A stretch of 64,000 nucleotides of DNA, taken from positions 1 to 64,000 of the forward strand of contig SXND01000282.1 of NCBI GenBank assembly GCA_005777235.1, read 5' to 3'. This DNA comes from Pseudomonadota bacterium. Its GTDB lineage: Bacteria; Tectomicrobia; Entotheonellia; Entotheonellales; Entotheonellaceae. This document shows, piece after piece, positions 52,734 through 58,602 of the stretch. Numbering within the stretch: the first letter of the stretch is position 1; every line of letters begins with the position of its first letter. The translations under genes were made by a program, and so were the position numbers. A model generated the notes under the pieces. That model saw only the letters and a list, made by a program, of their open reading frames with translations. It was not told the origin of the DNA and made no database searches.

Positions 52734-55421
52734 ATGCTGCAGCACATCCACCACCAGATCACCGTGGCCAACGGGGTACCGAGTCCGGCAACGCTAGCGG
52801 CGCTCGAAACCCGCTACCGCCAGACACTCATCGAGCAGTTCCAATACTTGACCTTTGAGGGCCTGCAACCTTCCGGGGTGCCGATTGTCTTGCCGCTGGC
52901 GCAGATCTATGTGGAACTCAAGGCAGTGGCCGATGTGCCCGAGGCGGCGGATACCTACAGTGCGGAGGAACGCCGCTTGCTGTTCGAGGCCGAGGAGCAT
53001 GGCCCGCTGGCGCGTGAGGAAGCAGCCATGCACCTGGATGCACTGCGCGCGGAACGCTGGAACCGGCAGAGCCGCCAGCAAGTAGAACGCTTACAGCGTC
53101 GTTCGATCGAGGAATTGCTCTATGGCCCTCTGCATCGCGGGGTGGTGATTCTGGGCGACCCCGGCTCTGGCAAGAGCACGCTGCTGCGCTATCAGGCCCT
53201 GCGAGCAGCACAGGGGGAGGGGCCGTCGGGCCTAGCGGCAACCGCGCTGCCGATTTTTGTGCCGCTGGCGGCCTATGACAGCTATTTGCCTCGCGGCATT
53301 GCGGCGGGTTCTCTGGGAGAGTTTCTGGCCCTATACTATGACCGCTGGCACAGCCTGCCAGGGCTGGCGCCGCTGTTTCAGCAGGCTCTGGAGGCCGGGC
53401 GGGCGGTGGTCCTGCTGGATGGCCTGGACGAGGTGCTCGACACGGCGCAACGGCAGTTTGTCGCCGAGCAGGTCGGGGGGCTCATGCGACAATGGGCGTC
53501 GCGTGGCAATCGCTTTGCCGTCACCAGCCGTATTGTGGGCTATCGTGAAGCGCGTCTGGCCGGTGATCTGCCACACGTCACGGTGCTGGATTTTGGCCGC
53601 ACAGAGATTGCCCAGTTCGCCCAGCAGTGGTGTCGCACCTATGAAATCGAGCTGGCCCGAGGCGAGACCCCCAGTGTGCTGCAGCGCGCCGCCACCGAAG
53701 CGCAAGCCCTCCTGGACGATGTACGCAGCAATGCCAGTGTGGAACGCCTGGCGGCCAGTCCGCTGCTCTTGACCATGCTGGCGCTGCTGCGGCGTCATGT
53801 CGGCAAACTGCCCGATTGGCGTATTGACCTGTATGCCAGCTATGTGCGCACCTTGATCGACAACTGGCAACTGGCCCGCAGCCGTGGGGCGCGTCGACAC
53901 CTGCCCGAACGCCTTGACTTCCACACGGCGAGTGACCACTTGATCGAGCTGGCCTTCTGGCTGCAACAGCATAAGCCCAGTGGCACGGCCCGGCGTCAGG
54001 AGCTGGAGCAAGCGCTGGAGGATATCTGTCTGCGCTATGAGGGGGGCGATCCCACGACAGCGTCGCGCAGAGAACGAGTCCAGGCGCGTCAGGCAGCCGA
54101 GCGCTTTCTGCGCGCTATGCGCCATTTTGCCGGTCTGCTGGTCGAGCGTGGCCGTGACGCCTTTGGTTTCCTGCATCTAACTTTTCAGGAGTACTTCGCC
54201 GGTCGTGCCCTGGCCCGCATGAGCCCAGATGAGCGCTGGGAGGCCATGGCGCCACATCTGCACCGCCCGCGCTGGCGGGAACCCATCCTCCTGTGCGCCG
54301 GGCAGTTGGGGGTGATAGAACGCCGCCGTGATGCGGTGAGTGACCTGGCCCAGAGCATTCTCACCGCCAACAGCCCACACGAGGCGATCCTCTATCGCGA
54401 TCTTTTTCTCAGCGCAGCGCTGGCGGCTGATGACGTTGGGCTCTCGCCAACAGTGCTTGATGCCCTGACCCGGCAATTGCAACCTTTGCAGGACAGCCCG
54501 ATACCTGCAGTGCGTGATACGGCACTGGCTGGCCTGGCCCAGTTAACACGCCTGGGGCATGAGCCAGCTTTGACGCTCTTGCTGGCATCGTTACACCAGA
54601 CCGCGCTCCAGGCACACGTCATGCGTGCCGCAAAAGCTGTACTAGAGGTCGAAGCGTGTGCTCTACTCCGTCAGGCCATCGTCGCCGCCCTGGCTGATGC
54701 GGACTGGCGCGCGCGGCAGGCGGCGGTGCAGGCGCTGGCGGGGCTGGTGGGCCGTGACGCGGCGGTGCGCCAGGCCCTCGTCGCCACCCTCGCCGATACG
54801 GACTATGACGTGCGGCAGGCGGCGGTGCAGGCGCTGGCGGGGCTGGTGGGCCGTGACGCGGCGGTGCGCCAGGCCCTGGTCGCCACCCTGGCCGATGCGC
54901 ACGATGGCGTGCGGCAGGCGGCGGTGCAGGCGCTGGCGGGGCTGGTGGGCCGTGACGCAGAGATAACCCTGCATCTCCTGCCCTGGCTAGGGACAGTGGG
55001 TGAGGAGTATCTTTCTGCAGACACTGCGACGGCGACCCGGCGGTTATTGGCGATGACGTATGCAGCATGCCTCGTGCCAGGTTCAGCCCTCATAGAACAG
55101 GTGGTCGCCATGCTCAGCGCTCCTGCCTGGCAGGCACGGCAAAGCGCCGCCCGGGCTTTGATTGCCATGCCAGGTGGTCCTCCGCCTGCTATACGAGCAA
55201 GATTGTTGGGTTTGCTCAGTGACAGCCGTGGGGAAGAGAGCTGGCCCGAGCGGCTCCAGGGGTGCGCTATCCTCCTGAATGACCGAGATGGCGATCTCAG
55301 CCAGCGCGCCATCGCCATAATGCTCGAGGCCCTCGACTACGCCACGCAACCCTGGTATGACCTTCCCCAGACACTGGGACGCGCGTGCGCCAGGAGGCCG
55401 CCCGCCTTCTTGGTCAATTAG
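52734..55421 (+). CDS. NACHT NTPase with HEAT-type repeats
   Basis: Walker A LGDPGSGKSTLLRYQAL, Walker B AVVLLDGLDEV; FGFLHLTFQEYFAGRAL; RQAAVQALAGLVGRDAAVRQALVATLAD repeats; C-terminal continuation in another frame (55385-55588). Confidence 0.9.
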   Translation: MLQHIHHQITVANGVPSPATLAALETRYRQTLIEQFQYLTFEGLQPSGVPIVLPLAQIYVELKAVADVPEAADTYSAEERRLLFEAEEHGPLAREEAAMHLDALRAERWNRQSRQQVERLQRRSIEELLYGPLHRGVVILGDPGSGKSTLLRYQALRAAQGEGPSGLAATALPIFVPLAAYDSYLPRGIAAGSLGEFLALYYDRWHSLPGLAPLFQQALEAGRAVVLLDGLDEVLDTAQRQFVAEQVGGLMRQWASRGNRFAVTSRIVGYREARLAGDLPHVTVLDFGRTEIAQFAQQWCRTYEIELARGETPSVLQRAATEAQALLDDVRSNASVERLAASPLLLTMLALLRRHVGKLPDWRIDLYASYVRTLIDNWQLARSRGARRHLPERLDFHTASDHLIELAFWLQQHKPSGTARRQELEQALEDICLRYEGGDPTTASRRERVQARQAAERFLRAMRHFAGLLVERGRDAFGFLHLTFQEYFAGRALARMSPDERWEAMAPHLHRPRWREPILLCAGQLGVIERRRDAVSDLAQSILTANSPHEAILYRDLFLSAALAADDVGLSPTVLDALTRQLQPLQDSPIPAVRDTALAGLAQLTRLGHEPALTLLLASLHQTALQAHVMRAAKAVLEVEACALLRQAIVAALADADWRARQAAVQALAGLVGRDAAVRQALVATLADTDYDVRQAAVQALAGLVGRDAAVRQALVATLADAHDGVRQAAVQALAGLVGRDAEITLHLLPWLGTVGEEYLSADTATATRRLLAMTYAACLVPGSALIEQVVAMLSAPAWQARQSAARALIAMPGGPPPAIRARLLGLLSDSRGEESWPERLQGCAILLNDRDGDLSQRAIAIMLEALDYATQPWYDLPQTLGRACARRPPAFLVN
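54713..54961 (+). repeat. 99-bp (33-aa) near-identical coding tandem repeats, about 2.5 copies
   Basis: Units begin at 54713, 54812 and 54911; roughly the first 66 nt of copies 1 and 2 are identical. Confidence 0.92.
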
Positions 55422-57662: not shown

Positions 57663-58157
57663 TTGAAGGAGGAGTGCATGTCTCGCAAAATGGTGTGTGT
57701 CACCTGCACTGTCGTTTGGTGTATGGCCCTGGCACTCGGCGCTCTGGCTCCGGCCCTGGCGAACCCGCTCAACTATCCCGAATATGCGCAGCACAAGGTC
57801 GATCCCGCGATCTCCATCACGTTTGTTGGCGTTGATCGGGTTAAGGAAGCCCTGGATGCTGGCTGGCCGCAGTTATTCGTGGATGTCCGCAGTCTGGACG
57901 AGTATAACGCCACGCATCTCCCCAAGGCGGTGTCTATCCCCCTCAAGGATCTGGCCGTGCGCATGGCCGAAGTGCCGCGCAATAGCCCGGTGATCCTGTA
58001 TTGAAGCTGTCCCCATCATCTGGCCAGTCTGGCCTACGAACAATTGTATCGTGCCGGGTATCGCAACATCAACGTGTTAGACGAAGGACTCCCCGGCTGG
58101 CAGCAACGCCAGTATCCTATTGAAGGTCTGCAACGCCAGTCGCAACGTCTTGACTGA
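57663..58157 (+). CDS. Exported rhodanese-like protein with in-frame TGA (58002-58004) at the catalytic Cys position; candidate selenoprotein or nonsense allele
   Basis: ...GWPQLFVDVRSLDEYNATHLPKAVSIPLKDLAVRMAEVPRNSPVILY[TGA]SCPHHLASLAYEQLYRAGYRNINVLDEGLPGWQQRQYPIEGLQRQSQRLD*; same frame stays open and homologous after the TGA. Confidence 0.75.
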
Positions 58158-58395
58158 ACGGCGCCTAGCGCGCTGTCCCGTGGCGGGGCTTTCGCTTGAC
58201 AGCCTACTCCCCCATTGATATATTCCACATTCGCAGGGTAAAGAGTTGGTACCGGGAAATAGCGGTGATCAATGAGTATGCCTGGCATAGTCAGACTTCC
58301 CATCCCCTCTTTCTGCAGTTTGAAGTCTGAGCGGTGGTGCCTCATCACTTGCTCTTCACAGGTTTTACATTGTGTACAGGTACGGAGAACGTGGC

Positions 58396-58602
58396 ATGCC
58401 AAGAGGTTCTGTCAAGTGGTTTGACGATCGCAAGGGCTATGGTTTTATTGCTCGTGAGGGTGGAAAGGACATTTTCGTCCACTTTTCGGCGATCCAAGGC
58501 GCCGGTTTCAAGACGCTGACCGAGGGGGAAGAGGTCGATTTCGAGATTGTCAATGGTCCGAAGGGCGAACAGGCTACCAACGTCCAGAAAGCCAGTGACT
58601 AG
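58396..58602 (+). CDS. Cold-shock protein (CspA family)
   Basis: [63 protein letters not shown]. Confidence 0.97.

Follow-up and report, generated by a model that had tools for sequence, protein, structure and literature searches.

A 2005 study reported selenoproteins of the rhodanese type (PMC1088965), and these were reported once more from ocean samples (PMC2398784). In a combined review and catalogue of 2026, five forms of Sec-rhodanese are distinguished by the motifs UxxS, UxxG, CxU, UxxG, and UxxxxU, while the U-x-C arrangement is absent for rhodaneses and present for other families (PMC13188914). Here we describe, from a stretch of 64,000 nucleotides (hereafter the window), a rhodanese gene with an in-frame TGA, of which the predicted active loop is U-x-C-P-H-H. 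The best NCBIfam match of its product was NF041203 (rhodanese_LYCAU), corresponding to form 3, C-x-U (PMC13188914). Both are small, exported-looking rhodaneses with a predicted UGA-encoded Sec, in which Pro follows the Cys/Sec pair of the active loop, but in NF041203 Sec comes second in the pair and in the window rhodanese first. UxC proteins gave 46.8-48.9 bits against NF041203 (46.8 for the window rhodanese), below its cut-off of 115. Forms 1, 2, and 4 (UxxS/UxxG; PMC13188914, PMC1088965) also carry Sec in a rhodanese domain, located at or beside the catalytic column in the UxxG-type genes of the present family. These forms differ from the window rhodanese in having no Cys at +2, and the UxxG-type paralogue of its own genome belongs to a separate clade. 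TsoB (form 5, NF045694), a rhodanese/DsbD fusion-like protein of about 570 residues, is likewise a rhodanese selenoprotein but has two Sec residues (UxxxxU) as against one in the window rhodanese, which gave 19.2 bits against NF045694, below the cut-off of 805. Sec-rhodaneses are thus known as a group, and the U-x-C-P-H-H form lies outside the five catalogued; the literature consulted was open-licence, so an earlier description may exist elsewhere. As a selenoprotein, this form would extend the prokaryotic selenoproteome beyond the 2026 catalogue.

Rhodanese gene with a single internal TGA

Reading of the forward strand identified one frame, 57678-58157, encoding a rhodanese interrupted solely by TGA at 58002-58004. 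No further stop is found between this TGA and 58155, and the gene, ending with TGA at 58155-58157, would direct synthesis of 159 residues including Sec109. From 57990 on, the sequence in the rhodanese frame is gtgatcctgtat-TGA-agctgtccccatcatctggccagtctggcc, the catalytic loop continuing as S-C-P-H-H after the TGA. The readthrough protein matched PF00581 (3.6e-17; 63.1 bits against a cut-off of 22.2) at residues 58-148, corresponding to 57834-58106 and spanning both sides of the TGA. The initial annotation had placed the TGA exactly at the catalytic Cys of a rhodanese, and the frame, the PF00581 match, and the alignment column all agree with this assignment. The column is occupied by Cys in rhodaneses generally, and the closest relatives read CxCP there. 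Since a strong Shine-Dalgarno-like sequence AAGGAGGAG is located just upstream, at 57666-57674, translation probably starts at ATG 57678 and not at TTG 57663, from which the gene had been drawn (57663-58157); the TGA and the stop at 58155 were correctly assigned. By inspection, a putative N-terminal signal peptide, MSRKMVCVTCTVVWCMALALGALAPALA (57678-57761), was recognized from a hydrophobic stretch and an ALA cleavage motif, with the cut before NPLNYPEY. Equivalents are present in two homologues (P0002 and P0003), and the rhodanese is probably exported to the periplasm. The AlphaFold2 model obtained from the single sequence was poor (pLDDT 52.8); its top matches by Foldseek were rhodaneses, none below E 0.001, and it is not used here for any conclusion on structure. 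Downstream of the gene, a terminator-like hairpin followed by a T-rich tail was detected at 58175-58189, as a consensus match only (shuffle mean 0.5). Because a complete Sec-decoding set is encoded in the genome, UGA is conserved at the catalytic column, and coding constraint is observed after it, 57678-58157 is very probably a real selenoprotein gene.

The predicted Sec/Cys pair and its Cys-containing relatives

Two residues after the TGA, Cys111 (58008-58010) is invariant in UxC and CxCP homologues. The latter include fusions of a rhodanese with diheme cytochrome c (L087-L116; P0006), which share the C-x-C-P-H loop and form a neighbouring clade but differ in having Cys instead of Sec and in their larger size, with two CxxCH motifs and the rhodanese as the C-terminal domain. 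This fusion is common in one bacterial phylum. Matches to the UxC/C-x-C-P-H profile with E 1e-18 or better were found in 88 of the 284 genomes of the phylum of G250, a count of rhodaneses matching the profile for which the motif was not required. Among the inspected loci with the C-x-C-P motif, 27/28 have a pair of in-frame CxxCH haem motifs, and Pfam search of one CxCP protein identified cytochrome c, cbb3-type cytochrome, and rhodanese domains. No name for such a fusion was found in a search of the open-licence literature, and no cytochrome was present among the examined neighbours of the window rhodanese gene.

The phylogenetic tree of 39 rhodanese domains separated UxC (95/92), CxU (92/74), UxxG (99/93), and CxCP (89/57) into individual branches. 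UxC, CxU, and CxCP together share a supported branch (95/87), within which the UxC clade stands beside the CxCP clade and the finer order is unsure. The genome of the window also contains a C-x-U rhodanese (L046; YCA-U-PDE), with 174 bits against NF041203 (cut-off 115), and a UxxG-type rhodanese (L045; AH-U-AGEGR), so that, as read from their sequences, one genome encodes the pair in either order, as U-x-C and as C-x-U. The gene for the C-x-U rhodanese, at 200-637 of locus L046, adjoins an ORF (684-2120) with 4Fe-4S-like Cys motifs, which by eye resembles a reductive dehalogenase. The type with H-U near a GxxR loop, to which L045 (contig C254) belongs, was found in all four genomes of the family (L045, L047, L048, and L049), and the hairpin CUGYCCUGGCAGGRCAG is near-identical in the four genes.

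We propose that SelB with Sec-tRNA(Sec) decodes the UGA at 58002, helped by a small hairpin just downstream, to give an exported rhodanese with the active loop LY-Sec-Ser-Cys-Pro-His-His. As the most likely chemistry, the selenolate of Sec109 would take the sulfane sulfur or become oxidized, and Cys111 would then resolve Sec109 via a selenenylsulfide. A thiol partner may regenerate the enzyme, or a cytochrome c, to which the diheme cytochrome c fusions among the Cys-x-Cys relatives point. In these relatives the C-x-C pair may perform redox chemistry coupled to electron transfer, and the Sec rhodanese may perform related chemistry in the periplasm. We give about an even chance to the protein being a periplasmic redox persulfide enzyme that uses two residues, as opposed to a sulfurtransferase with one thiol. 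The main competing view is that the product is a selenoprotein but an ordinary rhodanese acting through a single residue, with Cys111 playing no catalytic role. Many rhodaneses use one Cys, and the UxxG or UxxS Sec-rhodaneses do without a Cys two residues on. This view appears rather unlikely, if still of some weight, when set against the invariance of Cys111 across the UxC group and 28 CxCP homologues (the latter selected by that motif) and against the CxU family, in which Sec itself is placed at the position of Cys111. The fuller two-residue interpretation is that U-x-C-P-H-H represents a sixth Sec-rhodanese form, a redox enzyme of the periplasm that handles sulfane sulfur through a selenenylsulfide, and the standalone Sec counterpart of the cytochrome-fused C-x-C-P-H rhodaneses, with selenium allowed in either position of the same two-residue site; taken as a whole, this is offered tentatively, at a little short of even probability. 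With C-x-C as the Cys reference, the mirror pair of U-x-C and C-x-U allows tests of which residue benefits from selenium, and of whether these proteins are redox persulfide enzymes or plain sulfurtransferases.

Conservation of TGA and the downstream hairpin

Under another explanation, the TGA is a real stop and the remainder a relic, so that the gene is a pseudogene or gives a shortened product with Tyr108 as its last residue. An ordinary stop requires no special machinery, and the hairpin downstream is statistically weak (see below). The two nearest homologues (G002 and G003), from one other genus of the same family, are 44 and 43% identical over the alignment; both have TGA at the same column (LY-U-TCPHHLASLAY), with the open frame beyond it, and the consensus of the three genes is LY-U-(S/T)-CPHHLASLAY. 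Thus the search for scattered stops in relatives, a sign of pseudogenes raised by the initial annotation, instead found the TGA kept. The dN/dS ratio after the TGA (Nei-Gojobori, NG86) was 0.11 between G002 and G003; between genera it was 0.16 and 0.20, with dS close to saturation. By these values, the sequence 3' of the TGA is judged to be under purifying selection, indicating coding constraint rather than decay. The shortened form, moreover, would be without the active loop. Against these observations, decay or truncation is very improbable. The initial preference for Sec insertion over random decay is supported by the sel gene set, the conserved TGA, and the purifying selection together, and a TGA at a catalytic Cys calls for a check of Sec decoding before a gene is considered broken.

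The UxC genes found were three, from two genera only, and none was detected in the fourth genome of the family (G001, 77% complete). In the search of plasmid DNA, matches were confined to the cold-shock part of the query, and the plasmid protein search gave distant rhodaneses only, in partial-length alignments of no more than 49% identity. The scan of viral contigs gave no match, and that of named genome contigs gave a single distant rhodanese, from Cohnella.

A weak ggcc-agtct-ggcc stem 17 nt past the TGA had been pointed out earlier. It is indeed present, at 58022-58034, as a candidate apical hairpin of bacterial SECIS, GGCC-AGUCU-GGCC, with a loop (N1-GU-N-N2) 21-22 nt after the UGA. All three UxC genes carry it in the form GGCC-AGUYU-GGCC (or GGCCA-GUY-UGGCC), the loop lying 21-22 nt past the UGA. 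The paired bases are identical throughout, the sole difference being C to T in the loop; codon identity at conserved residues of these genes is 27/66. The published model of bacterial SECIS specifies 3-9 nt for the loop, which has a G near its start, 4-16 bp for the stem, 16-37 nt for the spacing, and an energy of at most -7.5 (PMC13188914). The UxC hairpin agrees with its loop, stem, and spacing terms, and fits the N1-G[GU]-N-N2 loop pattern (PMC13188914). Its energy was -6.2 kcal/mol for the apical hairpin alone and -7.4 for the 45-nt fold, the latter borderline and just short of the published limit. An equally stable hairpin was obtained in 6% of synonymous shuffles, and one with the loop consensus at 19-23 nt arose in 3.7% of such shuffles and with 0.8% of random codons. 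Within the family, the genes for SelD and for the CxU and UxxG rhodaneses have comparable hairpins 19-23 nt after their UGA. As a SECIS element, GGCC-AGUCU-GGCC remains a candidate with modest evidence, weakly significant when taken alone.

Misreading of a Cys codon, TGC or TGT, as TGA through sequencing or assembly error would be conceivable for a window whose source is a draft assembly in 284 contigs, its contamination estimated at 6.7%, but the same column holds TGA in three separately assembled genomes, two of them single-contig, and such an error is hardly credible.

Sec-decoding machinery in the genome

The initial annotation had cast doubt on Sec insertion from the lack of sel genes in the window. 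This doubt is lifted, as SelA, SelB, SelD, and tRNA-Sec were all identified elsewhere in the genome. SelA (154 bits), incomplete as cut by the contig end, adjoins SelB (378 bits) on contig C133, and tRNA-Sec with the anticodon tca (UCA) is located on contig C205 (77.6 bits). SelD (357 bits) has an in-frame TGA of its own in CAG-U-ASKMSP, the usual position of Sec in the SelD family. In the selD gene (L042), on the minus strand at 6206-7129 of contig C244 of this genome (G000), a strong hairpin lies 19 nt past the UGA (-11.2 kcal/mol), and the gene product is probably a Sec-containing selenophosphate synthetase. SelB was above the cut-off in 4/4 genomes of the family. Judged by gene content, the genome can decode UGA as Sec. 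Genome-wide reassignment of UGA to sense, known from genetic codes such as 4 or 25, would explain the in-frame TGA without SECIS, but TGA serves as an ordinary stop in the window more often than any other codon (17/41 long ORFs), and terminates the rhodanese gene itself, so that reassignment is refuted by stop usage, and the presence of the full Sec system also stands against this scarcely tenable reading.

Neighbourhood of the rhodanese gene

The downstream cold-shock gene is kept in both G002 and G003, and the gene for a TPP-dependent enzyme in the G002 region. A link to the upstream copper-type genes (DUF1775, CopD-like) was considered and dropped, as no match was found in the 16-kb regions around the G002 and G003 genes. 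Ahead of the cold-shock gene (58372-58602), a near-consensus extended -10 promoter-like site (11/12) was observed at 58196-58224. At 52734-55421, the window also encodes a large protein with an NTPase-like GDPGSGKST motif and, towards the C-terminus, near-identical repeats (AAVQALAGLVGRDAAVRQALVATLAD), each some 31 residues long.
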